From positions 1-30,959 of the IMG/VR virus record IMGVR_UViG_3300025695_001202: a stretch of DNA of 30,959 nt. One strand, written 5' to 3'. The translations under genes and the position numbers were made by a program. The notes under the pieces are model-generated. The model worked only from the letters and a program-made list of their open reading frames with translations. It searched no databases and was not told the DNA's origin. Origin of the DNA: a virus. Position 1 is the first letter of the stretch, and each line of letters starts with the position of its first letter. Below, in pieces: positions 4,935-30,707 of this stretch.

Positions 4935-5090
4935 TTAAGTGTGTTTATTTAAAATTAACTTTAATAGGTTAGTAACCTTACCATTTATTTCTTCTTTTTC
5001 AGATGTGGTGGGTGGGGTAACCGTTACATTCTCTGTTACTGATTTTCTTCTATAAACCAATTCTTCTACTTGTGCTTTTGTAAGTGCCAT
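4935..5090 (-). CDS. Small phage protein (51 residues), unknown
   Basis: Start chosen at the ATG at 5088-5090 (MALTKAQVEELVYRRK), a natural phage-like N-terminus; an ATG at 5126 would add 12 residues and overlap the end of the preceding gene by 17 bp. The sequence is an N-terminal helix, a Thr/Pro-rich linker (TENVTVTPPTTSEKEE) and a short C-terminal helix ending LLKLILNKHT. The layout of helix, flexible linker and helix could suit a small adaptor or scaffold-like protein. Function unknown. Confidence 0.55.
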   Translation of the reverse strand: MALTKAQVEELVYRRKSVTENVTVTPPTTSEKEEINGKVTNLLKLILNKHT

Positions 5091-5109
5091 ATTTAAATTT
5101 TTTAAAAAG

Positions 5110-6528
5110 TTAGTATTCACTATCATAAAACTCTAATTTTCTATTATGAACAATAAATGATAATGAAAGTACTTGCGTACCCACTATTAAGTTATCTACC
5201 GTCTCTATATCTGCAGCGAAAAATGAACCTGTTGCAACCTCTAATTGTAACAATTCTACAGATACAATATCAACTTGATTCCCATCAAAATCCAATAATT
5301 TATGGTTGGATGGGGTTAGTTGGAATACACTTACGTATCTAATACCTTCTTTAGTGGTGTCATATACCATTGCCGAACTACTACCACCTAAATAAAGTGT
5401 CTCATTAGTAGTCGTCACTTTAAAGACCTCACCGTTAAGGTTTGGTGTTTTGTGTTGACCGTGTACAACAACCGAAGAAGTTACCTCAGACCCTTCAGGC
5501 CACGTACTACCACTATGAAACCATGATAAATATTCATCAGGTATGTCGGTGTCAGGTGCGTTAGGGACATAAAATGATTTTAACTCCTGACCCACAAAAA
5601 TTTCGTCTAAACCTACTGGTTCATTATCTATAGACGACGATACGAATGTCTCAGTTTCAAACACTCCATCAACCACATCTTTAGTTTTCCATGTTGATGT
5701 AGAAAATTCTTTTTGGTGTTTGATAGGTAACTCCCAATTTGTCAATCCATCCCAATTTAAATTTGATGATGATGGTATACTAAATTCTGCAACCCTTTTC
5801 ATAGTACCCAAATCAATGTAATCTAATCCACTACCATAAACAATTCCATAGTTTCTATATGATTCAACATAATTAGAATCTATAGCACTTTGGTTAATTT
5901 CATAGTTCTGCATATAATGGGTTTCATTAAGATCATTCTTAGCTGTTTCCCAATCACTTATTTTAGAAAAAACCACATTTCCGTGAACGTTAGATTTAGG
6001 TTTGTATACCACATCGGGTATATTATCCGGATTAGATGAAGAAATAAGTGTGTTAATCACCGTACCATCATCATCCACAGTATAGAATGGTATCGCGGCG
6101 GAACCCGAACCCACTTCGTTAAATAACTTTAATACTGTGTCACCCTTAGAAGTGTATTGTGAATCTAATATTGCGTTTTCATCATAACACATTCTAAGTA
6201 TAAATTTATTATCTGCATCTCCCACCGGTGTCGGGAAAGAACTATGTAGTGGTTCGGATTGTGTGGTAATAGTTGTTATATTCGTTGCATTTTCAGTAAC
6301 CTTTAACTTTAAATCATCTACCGCGTCTTTATGTAGTTCCGCTTTATACATTAAATGTAACGTATCGAAACCATTGTTAGGGTCAGACAAAAAATCCGTC
6401 AGTCCCGTCCAATCTGCATCATTTTTTAAGAAATTACCATATAGTACGGTATCTGTGTTCATTTCTAAGAATCTGAGATTACCGTCCCTATCCTTAACAA
6501 AGTCATTTGAAATTAATATTCCTTTCAT
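5110..6528 (-). CDS. Phage protein with ATP-grasp-like start and Hint-like C-terminus
   Basis: A 472-residue protein without a firm family. The N-terminus holds DGNLRFLEMNTDT (about 15-27), which is like the metal and substrate loop of ATP-grasp enzymes, and KFILRMCYDENAILDSQY (around 107-125) and DVVYKPKSNVHG (around 170-181) would fit such a fold; this is weak. The last 100 residues look like a Hint (hedgehog/intein) beta domain: VFQLTPSNHKLLDFDG at 401-416 resembles intein block B, and FIVHN at 458-462 resembles the C-terminal splice motif. The +1 residue is Arg rather than Cys, Ser or Thr, so full protein splicing is not expected. The many Ser/Thr and beta-prone stretches would suit a virion surface protein. 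Confidence 0.6.
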   Translation of the reverse strand: MKGILISNDFVKDRDGNLRFLEMNTDTVLYGNFLKNDADWTGLTDFLSDPNNGFDTLHLMYKAELHKDAVDDLKLKVTENATNITTITTQSEPLHSSFPTPVGDADNKFILRMCYDENAILDSQYTSKGDTVLKLFNEVGSGSAAIPFYTVDDDGTVINTLISSSNPDNIPDVVYKPKSNVHGNVVFSKISDWETAKNDLNETHYMQNYEINQSAIDSNYVESYRNYGIVYGSGLDYIDLGTMKRVAEFSIPSSSNLNWDGLTNWELPIKHQKEFSTSTWKTKDVVDGVFETETFVSSSIDNEPVGLDEIFVGQELKSFYVPNAPDTDIPDEYLSWFHSGSTWPEGSEVTSSVVVHGQHKTPNLNGEVFKVTTTNETLYLGGSSSAMVYDTTKEGIRYVSVFQLTPSNHKLLDFDGNQVDIVSVELLQLEVATGSFFAADIETVDNLIVGTQVLSLSFIVHNRKLEFYDSEY

Positions 6529-7564: not shown

Positions 7565-8968
7565 TTATTTGTTTTCTTTAATCGTTTTAACCACTAATTT
7601 CTTTATTTCACTTTCATTCATTTGAGCGTTTCTCAAATTTCTCTCACCACCTAAATCCTCTATCTTAGTAACCGCTCTTCTTATAGAATCGGCAGGATTA
7701 GTAGATAATAATTCATCTTTAAAATCCTTAATTACTTGTTCAAGACCCGCAGAAATATTAATATCTGTAAGTGGGTGATTAGTTCCCGTATCTGTTTCAG
7801 ACCCACCATCAAATTTTTTAGGTTCACTTAATTCAACCTCAACGGTTTTATCGATCTCACCGTCCCTTATCATTTTTCTTGCAATGTTGTCGGTTGGTGC
7901 TTTCTTAGCGTATTCAACTAAATATGTAATATTCCAAGACCACTTAGTTGTTTCACCTTCTTCATTCTTTTCAGTTGACTTACCTGTTATTTTAACGTCG
8001 GACGCAACCATAACCTCAAACTTCCTATCGTTCGGGAAGTCACCTTGATCTAATTCGAATACGGGTGTTTTCCCATAACTTGAGTTACTCGTAAACCTTG
8101 TCTTAGACCAATTAGTGTATTTTGTGTTATATAACCTTCTAAGTGGTTTACTTTCTTTTTCAGGTACCTTACTAAGATCCCTTAATCTAGCTGACATTGC
8201 AACGTCCTTTATGAAGTTTTTCTGTGTTTCGTAAAGATTAATGTTGTGTGACTGAAAAGATATTTCACTATCACTAGTTGTACTATATCTATTTCTATGT
8301 TTAGGGTCGTCTATAATTATTTTAGGTAAACTAAGTTTTTTTAATCCATTATTAAGTTCTTCATCCTCTTGAATTTCTTTTTTAAGAATACTATTAAATG
8401 TTCTATTAATCTTCTCAGTTGTTTTTGTTGTTTTGAAGTTACCCTCGTCATCGAACCCTATTTGAAATGGGTCAACATCTAAGGTGAAGACTTCTTCTCC
8501 CCCCTCACCAGGTATTGCCTTAACCGATAGACTTTTACCCTCTTGGGTTCTAGGTGGGTCATATCCACAAGCCGCTTCAGTTAGTTTAACATCACCATAT
8601 TTATTTCGTATTTTAGTTGTTAAATCCGGATGTCTCTCCTTTAATTCGTCCCATTCACATGAAAATATAATTGGTAAGACTTCGTCTGTTTCTCTATTAT
8701 ATTTGAAAAAACCAACATGTTCTATAGGTTTTCCCGATTCATCTGTTGCATATAGTGGTGTCCAATCCGGTGGGAATTTCTTATCTTCTGGATCCTTAGC
8801 CCTTCTATTAAGTCTTCTCGGGTCCGAATCTCTCTTTATCTTTGTGACATCTCTTGGCATCTCATCCAAATCCTCAGATTCGTTAGGTCCGGCGTATCCT
8901 GCATGTCTTATTGTGGTTAGATTCTCCCCAATCAATGTAAGGATATCTTTTTTATTTAATTCTTCCAT
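7565..8968 (-). CDS. Unknown phage protein, charged, with C-terminal helix motif
   Basis: A 467-residue, highly charged protein; no domain recognised. The N-terminus MEELNKKDILTLIGENLTTI is an amphipathic helix. The first 100 residues are rich in Arg, Asp and Pro (e.g. RDSDPRRLNRRAKDPEDKK) and contain PPDWTPLYATDESGKPIEHV. The last 18 residues, MNESEIKKLVVKTIKENK, repeat the helix motif seen at the N-terminus of the protein at 2976. The central part carries mixed beta-prone segments, including SSYGKTPVFELDQGDFPNDR. Its transcript ends at the terminator 25 bp downstream. A virion or head-associated protein is a possible reading; I cannot show it. Confidence 0.65.
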   Translation of the reverse strand: MEELNKKDILTLIGENLTTIRHAGYAGPNESEDLDEMPRDVTKIKRDSDPRRLNRRAKDPEDKKFPPDWTPLYATDESGKPIEHVGFFKYNRETDEVLPIIFSCEWDELKERHPDLTTKIRNKYGDVKLTEAACGYDPPRTQEGKSLSVKAIPGEGGEEVFTLDVDPFQIGFDDEGNFKTTKTTEKINRTFNSILKKEIQEDEELNNGLKKLSLPKIIIDDPKHRNRYSTTSDSEISFQSHNINLYETQKNFIKDVAMSARLRDLSKVPEKESKPLRRLYNTKYTNWSKTRFTSNSSYGKTPVFELDQGDFPNDRKFEVMVASDVKITGKSTEKNEEGETTKWSWNITYLVEYAKKAPTDNIARKMIRDGEIDKTVEVELSEPKKFDGGSETDTGTNHPLTDINISAGLEQVIKDFKDELLSTNPADSIRRAVTKIEDLGGERNLRNAQMNESEIKKLVVKTIKENK

Positions 8969-25783: not shown

Positions 25784-26791
25784 TTATAATTTTCTAAAAT
25801 CCGGTTTTAATATTCTCCATAGGGTTTCTGCGTAATCGGATCCATCTAACATCTTAAATAAGAGTTGTGGGTATTCATATCTTTTTGCTCTTTCTGCAAA
25901 TTCTGCTCGATTATCTTTTAGAGATTCTAATACATTATAGAACGCTAAGTAACTTGATTCTAATAAAATATATTGTGAAGTCAGTTCTTCTACATACTCA
26001 TCTATTTTATTAAAGAATTCATCAGGAACATCTTCTAATATTTTGTAAATATCATTTCCACTACTCAAACATTCCCATACAGATTTAGTAGAGATTTCAG
26101 TCATAATCTTATGAAGTCTAATGTACTCCTCACCTTTGATTTTACACCTATCTCCATTTGAGAACTTAATCACAAATCCTTCTCTATTTTCACCTATATT
26201 TTGTTTTAGGTATTTGTAATTCTTAATGTTATTGTATTTTCTAACAACATCATATCCATTATTTTTAAATTGATCTAATGAATATTCTTCACCTGAATTG
26301 GTTCCAATTCTCCCCAATAAAACTAATCTCTCTGAACCTGCGTAATCTACAACAATTCTGTTTTCTGGATAGATGATTTCAAACATATAGGTTGAATCTT
26401 TAGAAAAATGAGATTGTTGAAATTTATCCTTAAACATCTCACCACCTTTAATTGCCTGTTCGGAAGTAAAAGAACCTCTACTTGCAAAAATCCATTTACC
26501 ATCATAGTAAAATGCAATACCTAACGAACCATCCATTTTCTCATATACCTCAAACTCATCAGTTATTGTATGTTTTTGTTCCTCGATATTAAAGAACTTT
26601 TTAAATGGTCTTGCTACTACATTACCACTTTCATCAGTAACCAGTCCTCTACATTGTAGAGTAATTTCATCCCACTTACCTTCATATTGAGTTGCCTGAG
26701 AATAGTTCCAAATAGTCAAAGGTAGGGTTGGGTGAGTTTGTTTAATCAACCAACCATCTTCGTAGTATTTGTTTAATAATTCTAAGTTCAT
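25784..26791 (-). CDS. rnlA: T4 Rnl1-type RNA ligase
   Basis: A 335-residue ATP-dependent RNA ligase of the T4 gp63 (Rnl1) kind. Motif I is EKMDGSLG with nucleophile Lys85; Arg48 sits in CRGLV upstream; motif IIIa is in YMFEIIYPENRIVVDY (135-150); motif IV is EGFVIKF (204-210); motif V is CKIKGEEY (216-223). The C-terminal all-helical domain follows, as in Rnl1. It seals 5'-phosphate to 3'-OH ends in RNA; in T4, Rnl1 repairs tRNA cut by the host anticodon nuclease PrrC. The polynucleotide kinase gene lies 1 bp upstream, and the tRNA cluster is beside it. Confidence 0.93.
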   Translation of the reverse strand: MNLELLNKYYEDGWLIKQTHPTLPLTIWNYSQATQYEGKWDEITLQCRGLVTDESGNVVARPFKKFFNIEEQKHTITDEFEVYEKMDGSLGIAFYYDGKWIFASRGSFTSEQAIKGGEMFKDKFQQSHFSKDSTYMFEIIYPENRIVVDYAGSERLVLLGRIGTNSGEEYSLDQFKNNGYDVVRKYNNIKNYKYLKQNIGENREGFVIKFSNGDRCKIKGEEYIRLHKIMTEISTKSVWECLSSGNDIYKILEDVPDEFFNKIDEYVEELTSQYILLESSYLAFYNVLESLKDNRAEFAERAKRYEYPQLLFKMLDGSDYAETLWRILKPDFRKL

Positions 26792-26792
26792 A

Positions 26793-27185
26793 TTATCTTA
26801 GTTTAATTTCAAATCTATCTTCCATCTTCTGTAAACTTTCTTCTGGTACTCCATGTTCATTTACTCCACCATGTCTGTTTTCAACAATTAGTGAATAAAC
26901 TCTATAGTCATGTTTTTCTGCAAGTTCATAGTATGGTTTCATTTCCCATTCTTGAGTAAATGTGTTTGAGACTACAATTCTACTAGTTTCTTGTTGCATC
27001 GCCCAATCCGTATTGTTTTGACACCATGTATGTGCTGAATGTAATTTAGTAGCTTCAAAAATATATGCACCTGTTAATGGGTGAATAAAGAATTGATCAG
27101 CTTCAAAATGTTCTCCACCTAATGATTTTGCTAAGGTTGATTTACCACTACCTGGTAATCCTCTTAATAAGTATAGTTCTTTCAT
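26793..27185 (-). CDS. Polynucleotide kinase-like P-loop protein
   Basis: A 130-residue kinase with the Walker A motif GLPGSGKST at 9-17, FEADQFF at 27-33 in the place of the acidic substrate-binding residue, and RIVVSNTFTQEWEM (69-82), which matches the N4BP2/AAA_33 family of small phosphotransferases. It phosphorylates RNA or DNA 5'-ends or a related hydroxyl. It has only the kinase part; T4 Pnkp is 301 residues with a 3'-phosphatase. The gene is next to rnlA with a 1-bp gap, so they are co-expressed. The order kinase then ligase fits RNA repair. Confidence 0.82.
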   Translation of the reverse strand: MKELYLLRGLPGSGKSTLAKSLGGEHFEADQFFIHPLTGAYIFEATKLHSAHTWCQNNTDWAMQQETSRIVVSNTFTQEWEMKPYYELAEKHDYRVYSLIVENRHGGVNEHGVPEESLQKMEDRFEIKLR

Positions 27186-27847: not shown

Positions 27848-28357
27848 TTACTTAGTGTTGTAATAGTTTTTCATGATCTCAGAATGTTCTTTTCTATGAG
27901 TTTTATTTGACCACCTTTGTTTTGCCTTTTCTGATATTTTCTTTTTGGTTTCTTCTGATATCCCCCTTCTACGATTTGCATCTGAAATTTTTTTTCTCGT
28001 TTCGTTAGTTGGTTTTTTCCCTTTATTAATTTCAGACAACTTTTTCTTGGTCTCAAGTGTGTGTTTTAACCCTAAGAACATTGGTCCACCCTCACCACCT
28101 AAACCCATATTATAGGTTTCACTAGTTGAGATAAACGACTCGTTTACTAGTTCTTTTTCTTTATTATTCATTTCTTCCTCACTATCAAATATAAACAAAA
28201 CTTGTTTTTCAAAGGACCCTTTTCCATACTTTTTTAATGCTTCCCTGATTGCCCTACCACTACCCATATAGTTATCATATGGATTTTTGGTTTGGTGTTT
28301 TCCAATATAAACCTTACCATTTATTTTGTTTGTTGTTTTGTATACCGTATATTTCAT
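27848..28357 (-). CDS. GIY-YIG homing endonuclease with NUMOD3 repeats
   Basis: A 169-residue protein from the ATG at 28355-28357; a longer frame starting with GTG further upstream would read through a tRNA-like element, so it is not used. The catalytic domain is MKYTVYKTTNKINGKVYIGK with the two Tyr motifs, RAIREALKKYG with the catalytic Arg, EKELV with the metal-binding Glu and YNMGLGGEGG. The C-terminal part holds NUMOD3-type DNA-binding repeats (ETKKKLSEINKGKKP, ETRKKISDANRRRG, ETKKKISEKAKQRW). This is a free-standing seg-like homing enzyme. It sits between tRNA genes, a common place for such elements to settle. Confidence 0.93.
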   Translation of the reverse strand: MKYTVYKTTNKINGKVYIGKHQTKNPYDNYMGSGRAIREALKKYGKGSFEKQVLFIFDSEEEMNNKEKELVNESFISTSETYNMGLGGEGGPMFLGLKHTLETKKKLSEINKGKKPTNETRKKISDANRRRGISEETKKKISEKAKQRWSNKTHRKEHSEIMKNYYNTK

Positions 28358-28372
28358 ATTAATAGGAATGTA

Positions 28373-28387
28373 ATCACTCACAGTGAT
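28373..28387 (-). other. Hairpin between tRNA-like element and GIY-YIG gene
   Basis: ATCACT, loop GTG, AGTGAT on the minus strand, 15 bp before the ATG at 28357. Either a leader hairpin of the homing enzyme or a processing structure for the RNA upstream. Confidence 0.35.
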
Positions 28388-28392
28388 ATTAG

Positions 28393-28484
28393 TTGGTATG
28401 GTAAGGATTCGAACCTCTATACCTCCGTTCCGCATTCCCCATATCGGTTCCAACTTCACAGTGTGCCCACTACACTACTACCAA
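28393..28484 (-). tRNA. tRNA-like element, degenerate, amino acid unclear
   Basis: A 92-nt element on the minus strand. Its 5' part follows tRNA numbering: TTGGTAG, TA, D arm GTGT/ACAC with loop AGTGGGC, and T at position 33. The 3' part has a normal T loop (GAGG TTCGAAT CCTT) and ATACCAA, which pairs with TTGGTA of the 5' end. The middle does not form a normal anticodon stem: T33 is followed by TGG (Pro), but 27-31 and 39-43 do not pair; a second possible stem, CCGAT/ATGCGG with one bulge, gives a GGG loop. It is a tRNA pseudogene or a class-II-like tRNA with an inserted piece. Confidence 0.4.
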
Positions 28485-28533
28485 ACGAGAGTTTCGAACC
28501 TCTCAGTCTCAGGTTAATTACTCCTAAGATTTG
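28482..28533 (-). ncRNA. D-armless tRNA-like element, candidate
   Basis: The minus strand reads CAAAT (closing 5' arm), CTTAGG / CCTGAG (6-bp stem with one G-T, loop AGTAATTAA), ACT, GAGAG / CTCTC (5-bp stem, loop GTTCGAAA, which includes TTCGAAA), GTTTG (closing 3' arm, pairs with CAAAT). This is a three-way junction with the T-arm signature but no place for a D arm, 52 nt in all. It begins at the discriminator base end of tRNA-Asp. Its 3' arm shares bases with the 5' end of the tRNA-like element at 28393, so the two cannot fold together. Confidence 0.4.
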
Positions 28534-28605
28534 CGGTCTATGAGGGTTCCGACCCCTCTACTTCTGCGTGACAGGCAGATATGATAGCCACTTCACCAAT
28601 AGACC
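28534..28605 (-). tRNA. tRNA-Asp (GTC)
   Basis: A 72-nt tRNA: acceptor GGTCTAT/ATAGACC perfect, anticodon stem TCTGC/GCAGA with loop CTGTCAC, D stem GTGA/TCAT, T stem GAGGG/CCCTC, discriminator G as in Asp tRNAs. The T loop is GTCGGAA, lacking the universal T54 and A58. No encoded CCA. Confidence 0.88.
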
Positions 28606-28833
28606 AGCAATTGGTTGTTTCGGGTACAACCAAGAAAACCTTGACATAATACCTACCAAAGGTAGATATCTCATAATTAAAATAATAAGTTACACAATTT
28701 ACTCTACACCAAACTTAACCTTCAAGTAAATCCCTTCAACTAACTACTCGTTTGGTTCTTTCGTTAGCCTCTCCAGTACTCTTTCAAGCATTAGGATTAG
28801 TAGCCTACCAGTCTTACCTCGCTTATTATTTTG
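28606..28833 (-). other. Structured spacer between tRNA-Asp and tRNA-Ala
   Basis: No gene is seen in these 228 bp. It holds three stems: TTGGTTGT/ACAACCAA with a 7-nt loop (28611-28633), directly ahead of tRNA-Asp; ATACCTACC/GGTAGATAT with one mismatch (about 28650-28670); and ACCAAAC/GTTTGGT, which closes a 49-nt element (28708-28756). The last has a direct repeat of TTGAAGG in its interior. No T-loop sequence is present, so these are not simple tRNA genes. Confidence 0.4.
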
Positions 28834-28906
28834 TGGAGAAACCGGGACTCGAACCCGGAACTATAGAATGCAAATCTATGATGATAGCCAATTTCACCAA
28901 ATCCCC
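28834..28906 (-). tRNA. tRNA-Ala (TGC)
   Basis: A 73-nt tRNA: anticodon stem ATAGA/TCTAT, loop TTTGCAT, D stem GTGA/TCAT, T arm CCGGG/CCCGG with loop TTCGAGT. The acceptor GGGGATT / TTTCTCC keeps G3-T70, the identity pair of alanine tRNA, but positions 6 and 7 are T-T mismatches, so the lower acceptor stem is weak. Discriminator A. No CCA encoded. Confidence 0.85.
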
Positions 28907-28909
28907 AAA

Positions 28910-29015
28910 TATTGAATGTGTTATAGGGCGAGGTTCAAAAACCACACACTATACAAAGACCGATTCTTATTTGTAACCCAAACTAGCCCAGGTGCCGGTG
29001 CAACGCCATTCAATA
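28910..29015 (-). ncRNA. Stem-closed RNA element between two tRNAs, candidate
   Basis: A perfect 9-bp closing stem TATTGAATG/CATTCAATA (28910-28918 and 29007-29015) spans nearly the whole spacer from tRNA-Glu to tRNA-Ala, leaving 1 and 3 bp on either side. Inside on the minus strand are TATAG/CTATA with GGTT-TTTG-AACC, TGC/GCA and possible GGCG/CGCC pairing. It is too long for a tRNA and has no anticodon arm, though it is built like a cassette between two tRNAs. Confidence 0.45.
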
Positions 29016-29016
29016 G

Positions 29017-29088
29017 TACTCCGTAGGGGTATCGATCCCCTTACTCCACCGTGAAAGGGTGGTGACTTAGCCAGTTGTCGAACGGAGC
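29017..29088 (-). tRNA. tRNA-Glu (TTC)
   Basis: A 72-nt tRNA: acceptor GCTCCGT/ACGGAGT with a G-T end pair, anticodon stem CCACC/GGTGG, loop CTTTCAC, D stem GAC/GTC, T stem AGGGG/CCCCT. The T loop is ATCGATA, with A in place of T54. Discriminator A. No CCA encoded. Confidence 0.88.
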
Positions 29089-29203
29089 ATTTGTAACTTT
29101 TAAATTATCCCCATAGTTACTAACTGTGCCAACATACGATTTGGAGGTATCAGTGTGCATTGTTAAGAGGCAGTACCTATCTTCGTTCCCTTGTACTTCG
29201 GGC
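29089..29203 (-). other. Spacer after the second GIY-YIG gene
   Basis: No coding sequence seen. Minus strand hairpins: CACAGTT-AGT-AACTATG (7 bp with one G-T, 29112-29128) and AGGTA/TACCT enclosing about 24 nt (about 29145-29175). It separates the homing endonuclease from tRNA-Glu and may be 3' processing sequence. Confidence 0.35.
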
Positions 29204-29884
29204 TTATTTCTTTTTTACTTTTCTACCTAATCTCCAACCCTCAGGTATTGCATCTCCTTTATGAATTTTCTTACTCTCAACATCATTTGTAATCCAACAG
29301 GTTCCGTACTGTGAGTTTTCCTTACCTTTGCCATGACCTTTTTTAGTCGCTTTCATCAGTTTAATAGTGCTGGTACTGTGTGTCCTACCTAACATTGTTG
29401 CATGATTAAAGTTAACTGCTTTTAGTCCTTCTGATATTTTATTTGAAAGTTTTTCATGGTCATCTTCGTTTAGTGAATCTCTCCATCGTTTTGCTATAAA
29501 CTTTCCATATTCCTTTCCATATTTTCCAACTAAGATCTCGTTTGTTTTTCTCCTACCTCTTTGTGCCTGTTCTTTGGTAAAGCCTCCATCTCCACCTACT
29601 TTTAGATTCATACATTCCTTCTTAGCAATTTCTTGAAGAGATACTACCTCTTTTTCTCTTACTGCTAATTCCTCTCTTGAATTTAAAAATTCCAAGATCT
29701 CTATCGAATGATTTTCTTTACCATATTTATTTATCGATCTCCTTAGTAGTATTCCAGATCCTAAATATCCATCATTCAAATCATCTGTTGAATGCATTCC
29801 TATATAATATCTTCCACTCAATAAATTTGTGGTCTTATAAATAAAGTGGTACTTTTTTCTTGTACCGTATTGTTTTTTTGCCAT
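29204..29884 (-). CDS. GIY-YIG homing endonuclease (Seg-like)
   Basis: A 226-residue enzyme. YHFIYKTTNLLSGRYYIGMH (13-32) is the GIY-YIG core, GSGILLRRSINKYG includes the catalytic Arg, REKEVV the catalytic Glu, and MNLKVGGDGG the closing Asn and Gly-rich turn. The middle is a basic DNA-binding linker, and the C-terminus (NSQYGTCWITND and IPEGWRLGRKVKKK) matches the DNA-recognition end of T4 Seg proteins. It lies between tRNA-Gly and tRNA-Glu. The leader has a 10-bp hairpin that covers the Shine-Dalgarno sequence. Confidence 0.93.
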   Translation of the reverse strand: MAKKQYGTRKKYHFIYKTTNLLSGRYYIGMHSTDDLNDGYLGSGILLRRSINKYGKENHSIEILEFLNSREELAVREKEVVSLQEIAKKECMNLKVGGDGGFTKEQAQRGRRKTNEILVGKYGKEYGKFIAKRWRDSLNEDDHEKLSNKISEGLKAVNFNHATMLGRTHSTSTIKLMKATKKGHGKGKENSQYGTCWITNDVESKKIHKGDAIPEGWRLGRKVKKK

Positions 29885-29887
29885 AAT

Positions 29888-29920
29888 GTACTTCCTTTCT
29901 AATAAATAGTAAGGAAGTAC
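29888..29920 (-). promoter_or_regulatory. Leader hairpin that buries a Shine-Dalgarno sequence
   Basis: A perfect 10-bp inverted repeat: GTACTTCCTT (29920-29911) and AAGGAAGTAC (29897-29888) on the minus strand, with the 13-nt loop ACTATTTATTAGA. The distal arm contains AAGGAAG, ending 6 nt before the ATG at 29884, so the stem would cover the ribosome site. The loop holds TATTTATT, a 7/8 match to the element found before five other starts. A transcript begun inside the loop would lack the upstream arm and free the site. Confidence 0.6.
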
Positions 29921-29936
29921 AAAAACAACTTCCCGG

Positions 29937-30008
29937 AGCGGCTAGAGAGAATCGAACTCTCATCTTTAGATTGGAAGTCTAAAGTAATGACCATTATACG
30001 ATAGCCGC
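29937..30008 (-). tRNA. tRNA-Gly (TCC)
   Basis: A 72-nt tRNA: acceptor GCGGCTA/TAGCCGC perfect, anticodon stem TTAGA/TCTAA, loop CTTCCAA, D stem GTA/TAC, T stem GAGAG/CTCTC with loop TTCGATT, discriminator T. No CCA encoded. Confidence 0.9.
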
Positions 30009-30225
30009 ATTTTCGTTTAGTGAGATTTGCCAAACTAGATTTTAACGGTTTTCTCATACTTTCATTTAAACCATTAGTGTCTTACCACATAAAAACAAGT
30101 CAAGTTACTGGGAGGCTCTACTACCTGCCTTTATTCCTCAGAGACCGGCATTAAGGATGTCCAGTCTAATACCCCTATTTTATTTATAGACTCCATAGAT
30201 GTCTGTGAGTATCTCTTACTCGTTG
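30009..30225 (-). other. Spacer between tRNA-Gly and tRNA-Thr
   Basis: No gene seen in 217 bp. Short stems occur, for example GAGTA/TACTC with a 5-nt loop (30207-30221), GGCAT/ATG(T)CC (about 30147-30162) and TGAGA/TCTCA (about 30021-30050). None is long enough alone to claim an RNA gene. Confidence 0.3.
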
Positions 30226-30297
30226 AGCTCAGACTCAGGTTCGAACTGAGGACTATTGATTACAAGTCAATTGTTTTACCAACTAAACTATCCGAGC
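30226..30297 (-). tRNA. tRNA-Thr (TGT)
   Basis: A 72-nt tRNA: acceptor GCTCGGA/TCTGAGC, D stem GTTT/AAAC, anticodon stem ATTGA/TCAAT, loop CTTGTAA, T stem CTCAG/CTGAG with loop TTCGAAC. Discriminator T. No CCA encoded. It is the cleanest tRNA of the set. Confidence 0.92.
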
Positions 30298-30707
30298 AAA
30301 TGAAGAGGTTTCGGGTCTTTCAGGGTTTCTGGTTTGGTAGGTATATTACAAACCCTTTTTAAGTTACCTACCCTAACAGCTTCACTACCTCTTCGCAAAA
30401 GACTTACCCTGGTACGATGTTCTTATGTTTATCGTGGTAAGTACTTATGATAAAGTTAGAATGGTGATTTGAATCCCTTTTAAGTTCCCTATGAACGTCT
30501 AACTTTTAATTTTTAACCATCTATAATAGCTGTATTAGATTGTTCCTATCTAATCAACTTAATGTTTCCAACACTATTATAAATGGTTTGGAGATAATTT
30601 CACTCTTGTTAAAATACCAACTTACCATTACCGAAAGTACTCCCGTAATAAATGGGACCGGGTTAAAGGGTCTATAGTTGTATGTTACTTTTTTCTTATT
30701 TGCCATC
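30298..30707 (-). other. 410-bp non-coding stretch with a run of stem-closed elements
   Basis: No gene is seen here. There are five stems in a row: GAAGAGGT/ACCTCTTC (30302-30309, 30387-30394) around GGTAGGTA/TACCTACC (30336-30343, 30365-30372); ACTTACC/GGTAAGT (30402-30408, 30436-30442) around ACGAT/ATCGT; AAAGTTAGA/TCTAACTTT (30452-30460, 30498-30506); ATTAGAT/ATCTAAT with a 7-nt loop (30534-30554); AATGGT/ACCATT (30582-30587, 30624-30629). The third encloses two hairpins and the T-loop sequence TTCAAAT on the minus strand. The order and spacing recall a row of eroded tRNA genes. Confidence 0.5.
30452..30506 (-). ncRNA. 55-nt tRNA-like element without a D arm, candidate
   Basis: A perfect 9-bp closing stem AAAGTTAGA/TCTAACTTT. 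On the minus strand it encloses GTTC-ATAGG-GAAC (4-bp hairpin at the anticodon side) and GGGA-TTCAAAT-CACC, whose loop matches the tRNA T-loop consensus. This is the same order of parts as at 28482-28533: closing stem, one hairpin, T-loop hairpin, closing stem. Confidence 0.45.

Follow-up and report, generated by a model that had tools for sequence, protein, structure and literature searches.

Introduction

Transfer RNAs of animal mitochondria that lack a D arm still have an acceptor stem and decode through their anticodon loop, and the put RNA of phage HK022 places two adjacent hairpins in a phage transcript. Phage T4 encodes two late RNAs, RNAC and RNAD, whose function is unknown (PMC9697503, PMC3014915). 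GOLLD and ROOL are phage noncoding RNAs that often lie near tRNA islands (PMC12286853). Phage tRNAs themselves have been tied to the evasion of anticodon nucleases, retrons and Septu; in the case of Septu, the homing endonuclease SegB amplifies a tRNA-Tyr segment (PMC10264068, PMC11555353, PMC13096335). Here we analyzed a 30,959-base IMG/VR virus record (IMGVR_UViG_3300025695_001202), the whole of which we call the window. A sequence-only reading had proposed two small tRNA-like elements lacking a D arm in its tRNA array, A (28482..28533) and B (30452..30506). Both are present where the reading placed them and share the minus strand with the seven tRNAs called by ARAGORN and Rfam. We demonstrate that A consists of two neighbouring hairpins, whose loops (UAAUU and RUUCGAAR) hardly vary, and that it is followed by a tRNA-shaped partner, X.

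The A-X unit resembles T4 RNAC and RNAD in being small non-tRNA RNA encoded immediately next to the tRNAs of a phage cluster. T4 species 1, which the RNAC probe of PMC9697503 matches, also resembles A in having a T arm at its 3' end, behind a hairpin. Unlike A-X, RNAC and RNAD are single units of 120-137 nt, and neither contains a 50-nt pair of hairpins with the loops UAAUU and RUUCGAAR. R1, a covariance model of A based on 35 relatives with the window copy left out, reached at best 12.1 bits in the T4 region, outside RNAC and RNAD, and 6.8 bits in species 1, and nhmmer found no homology between the T4 RNAs and the window X. RNAC and RNAD are the nearest precedent for A and are not homologous to it. 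GOLLD and ROOL differ from A in being hundreds of nucleotides long, and the window A and X match neither in Rfam scans. Nuclease-evading phage tRNAs share with A-X the location in tRNA arrays and a possible counter-defence role (PMC10264068, PMC11555353), but they carry anticodon loops, and A and X are not such tRNAs. No description of the family was found in Rfam 15 or in the literature searched, whose scope left out most subscription journals. A-X is a two-part RNA family, present in dozens of large phage contigs, with loops kept almost base for base.

Element A is a conserved pair of hairpins

Element A comprises a CAAA lead, hairpin 1 and hairpin 2, as described by a covariance model and 58 distinct relatives; its last 3 nt are shared with the 5' end of the X acceptor stem. 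Hairpin 1 (28507..28529, minus strand) has 7 bp and a 9-nt loop, AGUAAUUAA, and hairpin 2 (28487..28504, minus strand) has a T-arm-like stem of 5 bp and an 8-nt loop, GUUCGAAA. Compared with shuffled sequences, A folds as this adjacent pair with a z-score of -2.26.

We collected relatives of A from IMG/VR. With nhmmer, a single homologue was found in a second tRNA array, L035 (E 0.001). Of the 24 stretches that a pattern scan then returned, 22 are true homologues within tRNA arrays; the other two, in L045 and L047, lack tRNAs and were rejected as chance matches. A wider pattern returned 85 stretches. The resulting 58 distinct A sequences, nearly all on tRNA-rich phage contigs, are not 58 independent lineages, as contigs may repeat close phage relatives and many are fragments. 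Model R1 recovered the window copy at 75.1 bits (cmsearch, E 3e-18), the next match in the window scoring 10.8 bits. Among 12 large phage contigs (176-430 kb), 11 carry one strong copy and one carries two, with two further weak matches. A slightly stricter pattern, run over 84,980 bacterial and archaeal species with a single genome per species, did not find A, and INPHARED phages gave no blastn match to the A-X copy of L048. At the sensitivity of the pattern used, A is confined to phages.

Both hairpins are supported by compensating changes. In hairpin 1, 94.3% of cells across the 58 sequences are paired (shuffle maximum 78.6) and 94 are double-changed (shuffle maximum 40); double-sided changes occur at all seven pairs, with 94-98% of cells paired. 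Hairpin 2 is 100% paired, with 60 double-changed cells (shuffle maximum 25) and double-sided changes at four of its five pairs. A count over both hairpins gave 115 double-changed cells, against 32 in shuffles. Each slide of the partner strand abolished the covariation signal in the 35-sequence alignment; slides correct for kinship, whereas shuffles ignore it. Since several pair types occur at each stem position, a single inherited change is an unlikely source of the signal.

The loops are nearly invariant: UAAUU, a word that is part of the search anchor, occurs in hairpin 1 of all 58 sequences, and all 58 carry the 8-nt loop R-UUCGAA-R in hairpin 2, where TTCGAA is part of the anchor, which did not vary the loop length. 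The search patterns and the collecting script contained both words and also required stems of at least 4 bp, so that loop invariance and percent paired are partly built in; two-sided stem changes are not. The sequence-only reading had pointed to something real in A, a small, structured and so far undescribed RNA that lies amid phage tRNAs and contains the T-loop word of a tRNA, and among the identities it listed, a functional mini-RNA fits A.

A is coupled to a tRNA-like partner

Partner X (28393..28484, minus strand) has the acceptor stem, U8, D arm and T arm of a tRNA, and lacks an anticodon arm of 5 bp with a 7-nt loop. In its acceptor, 96.7% of cells are paired and double changes number 24, against at most 11 in shuffles; the best of three offsets was used here, which biases the result toward pairing. 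U8 is present in 56 of 56 copies, and the D-arm motif (GTGT...GG...GCAC) in 57 of 58. The T arm has a 7-nt loop and a covarying stem, 85.7% paired. Between the first strand of the D stem and the T stem lie 31-96 nt, of which solely the base of the anticodon stem is kept; this base covaries, with GC/CG and CG/AT/TA changes. In the near-identical copy of the window, X scores 16.4 bits against the Rfam tRNA model, under the cut-off of 29, and a few short X copies are still called by ARAGORN as tRNA-Val(AAC), Thr(AGT) or Ile(AAT).

The variable region falls into classes: a short arm with loop GUAAYU; an arrangement GAACGGAGUA-[variable hairpin]-GAAAGGGGA; and C-rich forms. L078 and L087 are identical in A and in the visible flanks of X and differ in the hairpin tip of X. 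Certain X tips recur in different phages (L071, L081, L083 and L112): one set has a GAATACGAAAAGCATT..GCTTTCG hairpin in common and another set a GACAGTCCRCATGAGGACGG hairpin, giving the impression that tips are swapped like cassettes.

The coupling of the two parts is strict. X lies directly downstream of A in 58 of 58 copies, and a pattern scan for X by itself found 32 loci, every one with A in front. In 52 of 55 testable cases, A starts exactly one base past the 3' acceptor strand of the unit upstream, which is a tRNA or resembles one. In the window this unit is tRNA-Asp(GTC) (28533..28605, minus strand; ARAGORN and Rfam), whose discriminator G immediately precedes A and whose ARAGORN span takes in the first C of A. 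With a tRNA-type 3' end before it and X directly after it, A would lie between two predicted tRNA-processing sites. An open covariation search over fixed A+X columns ranked highest both A hairpins, the X acceptor, the X T stem and the base of the X anticodon stem. This search found no helix between A and X, suggesting that they are independent domains. We are highly confident in this anatomy, a two-hairpin A joined to a tRNA-shaped X with a variable anticodon domain, in large tRNA-rich phages.

A does not have the structure of a tRNA

The sequence-only reading had placed the two hairpins of A within a closing stem and had considered a D-armless or an eroded tRNA. The hairpin order held, but the closing stem (CAAAU/GUUUG) did not, with zero covarying pairs among the 58 relatives. 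Its innermost, fourth pair forms in 2 of the 58 and fails in 56, and its 3' side departs from NTTG in 9 (GAATG, GGTGA, GATTA, GGAAA and others). The supposed 3' half is the beginning of the X acceptor, which is 96.7% paired in the relatives. CAAA follows all 41 copies of A counted, and also 320 of 980 (32.7%) other tRNAs in these arrays; we therefore regard it as a conserved lead, not as one side of a helix.

The hairpins depart from tRNA arms as well. In place of an anticodon arm with a 7-nt loop, all 58 sequences have a 7-bp stem and a 9-nt loop, in which the candidate anticodon shows no variation (TAATT being part of the search anchor). The T-loop word is real in A, but the loop has 8 nt rather than 7. 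ARAGORN made no call for A, and Rfam gave no match at gathering thresholds or at E<=10, with the models for tRNA, GOLLD, ROOL and tmRNA included. A shares with the D-armless tRNAs of animal mitochondria a two-hairpin look with a T-like arm (PMC7609411), but its acceptor stem is unsupported and nothing in it varies as an anticodon would. As the closing stem lacks comparative support, A is not a D-armless tRNA, and the strong constraint on its stems and loops across phages excludes an eroded one. A does not decode.

Element B is not distinguishable from chance

The second proposed element, B (30452..30506, minus strand), is a 9-bp stem-loop. Its nine closing pairs are perfect, and its fold is better than those of its shuffled counterparts (z -2.83), but when the array is shuffled, 38% of the versions contain a 9-bp stem around a TTCRA word (P=0.38). 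The supposed T arm is poor, consisting of GG/CC plus a mismatch. A search with nhmmer found no homologue in the arrays compared, and a pattern for the 5' half of B, run over IMG/VR viral contigs, matched solely another copy of the same phage, 99.97% identical. Model R1 did not match B even with filters off, and the grouping of A and B as one set was abandoned. B is thus indistinguishable from chance and unrelated to A, and is best regarded as unsupported as a conserved RNA. It is possible that B is an eroded tRNA. Its fold and its nine perfect pairs would suit a real small RNA private to this phage lineage; given a stem at chance level for the array, the poorly formed T arm and the lack of homologues in viral contigs or the closest arrays, we consider this improbable.

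The tRNA array lies beside RNA repair genes

The tRNA array of the window (30297 to 27299, minus strand) holds seven tRNAs by ARAGORN and Rfam, in the order Thr, Gly, Glu, Ala, Asp, Met and Met, and contains two homing endonuclease genes (27848-28459 and 29204-29884). An encoded C follows 96.9% of 980 tRNAs in the arrays compared (L016, L032-L035, L042 and later loci), and a full CCA is seldom encoded. The neighbourhood of the window array is one of RNA repair. Next after the array comes a short, kinase-only polynucleotide-kinase-like gene (PNK; 26793-27185) and beyond it, on the same flank, an Rnl1-type RNA ligase gene (25784-26791). L016, the 99.97% identical copy of the window phage, reaches past the window, and two of its open reading frames (195-932 and 5038-6084) read, from motifs judged by eye, as a DRB0094-type RNA ligase and a CCA-adding enzyme.

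Possible role of A-X

The best overall explanation, to which we assign an even chance, is that A forms the 5' part of a conserved noncoding A-X module that is processed as tRNAs are and is linked to counter-defence. The array transcript would be cut by the tRNA machinery, through 3' processing of the upstream tRNA and RNase P cleavage at X, and this would either free A as an RNA of about 50 nt or keep A-X as a single molecule. Judging from established tRNA processing, release of A by this machinery is likely. The hairpins of A may mimic two tRNA arms, the anticodon arm and the T arm, and bind a protein that recognises tRNAs; the most plausible candidate is a host factor that cleaves or modifies tRNA. 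A-X would then protect the phage tRNA pool, beside the phage RNA repair enzymes. This counter-defence role is uncertain, and we propose it tentatively. A more elaborate version, in which the constant tRNA-mimicking parts of A-X would hold a host tRNA-targeting factor, the swappable tip of X would tune the target and the V elements described below would form a wider repertoire, is speculative and quite unlikely to be correct.

The RNA repair genes flanking the window array fit the idea of a counter-defence or repair locus, but several points weigh against this explanation. Among 106 A-X loci, which are fragmentary, an Rnl1 gene lies near 7 and a PNK gene near 6. RNA repair genes were rejected as a constant neighbour of A-X, and with so few loci in reach of them the link to counter-defence is weak. 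The loops of A were matched to no known nuclease target. The first pair of X is U-G or mismatched in many copies, and an RNase P site there is therefore not certain.

A could instead act in cis, as a two-hairpin signal in the nascent array transcript with no separate life, serving either in antitermination, like the HK022 put RNA, or in the processing or stability of X. Adjacent hairpins, conserved loops and a constant distance from X would all suit such a signal, and long untranslated array transcripts would benefit from antitermination. However, antitermination needs no strict coupling to X alone, A occupies the middle of the array and not its start in L035, L055, L056 and L063, and A and X do not pair; set beside the put RNA, A stands apart in being tied to X and in this mid-array position. 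We consider a cis-acting A somewhat unlikely. It is also unlikely that A-X forms one stable structural RNA of the RNAC/RNAD kind with a role outside defence, for instance in late translation or ribosome control. T4 species 1 and 2 immediately follow tRNA-Arg, the 3' end of species 1 is a hairpin and a T arm, RNAC and RNAD are late RNAs checked by Northern blotting (PMC9697503, PMC3014915), and GOLLD RNA accompanies A-X in 2 of 10 arrays scanned, all of which would agree with such a role. Yet there is no sequence relation, the model of A reaching no more than 12.1 bits in the T4 region and outside these RNAs, and the function of RNAC and RNAD is itself unknown. A charged, decoding D-armless tRNA, or an eroded one, could account for the T-loop word, the two-hairpin order and a hairpin 1 loop with U followed by AAU; with the acceptor stem refuted, loops constant at 8 and 9 nt, no tRNA call by ARAGORN or Rfam, and covariation too strong for erosion, we regard it as extremely improbable.

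These findings indicate that phage tRNA arrays contain a second population of RNAs, which have the shape of tRNAs, are either conserved or hypervariable, and are unable to decode normally. The A-X RNAs offer concrete cases for studying why phages carry tRNA clusters, an old question, and they widen the long-standing puzzle of T4 RNAC and RNAD to a far larger set of RNAs.

Other structured RNAs in the arrays

A family of tRNA-Leu-like elements, V, combines a constant acceptor (AGTCAGG/CCTGACT) and T arm with a hypervariable middle, mostly without a recognisable anticodon arm. V elements were seen at L002:5158-5256 and L019:9343-9962 and, in many copies, in L044, L066, L076 and L080, with about eight to twelve regular-expression matches per array in these four. 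V-type acceptors lie immediately upstream of A in 10 cases. Among the matches listed in an Rfam scan of ten A-X arrays, GOLLD occurred in two (L056 and L063) and tmRNA in one; these GOLLD RNAs and the tmRNA lie in or beside A-X arrays of large phages (L056:6171-6574 and 7779-8171; L063:30-459).

Further elements were noted in the window, all on the minus strand. Z (30398-30452) has a weak homologue alone, and I2 (28907-29015) has a homologue in L038 (nhmmer E 4e-4). I4 (30009-30224) is a 216-nt inter-tRNA RNA without an Rfam match that has homologues in about 20 phage tRNA-array loci, the best in L038 (E 1e-35). The structured RNA Y (30296-30400) has a closing stem GAAGAGGT/ACCTCTTC and relatives in the tRNA arrays of L033, L027 and L038.

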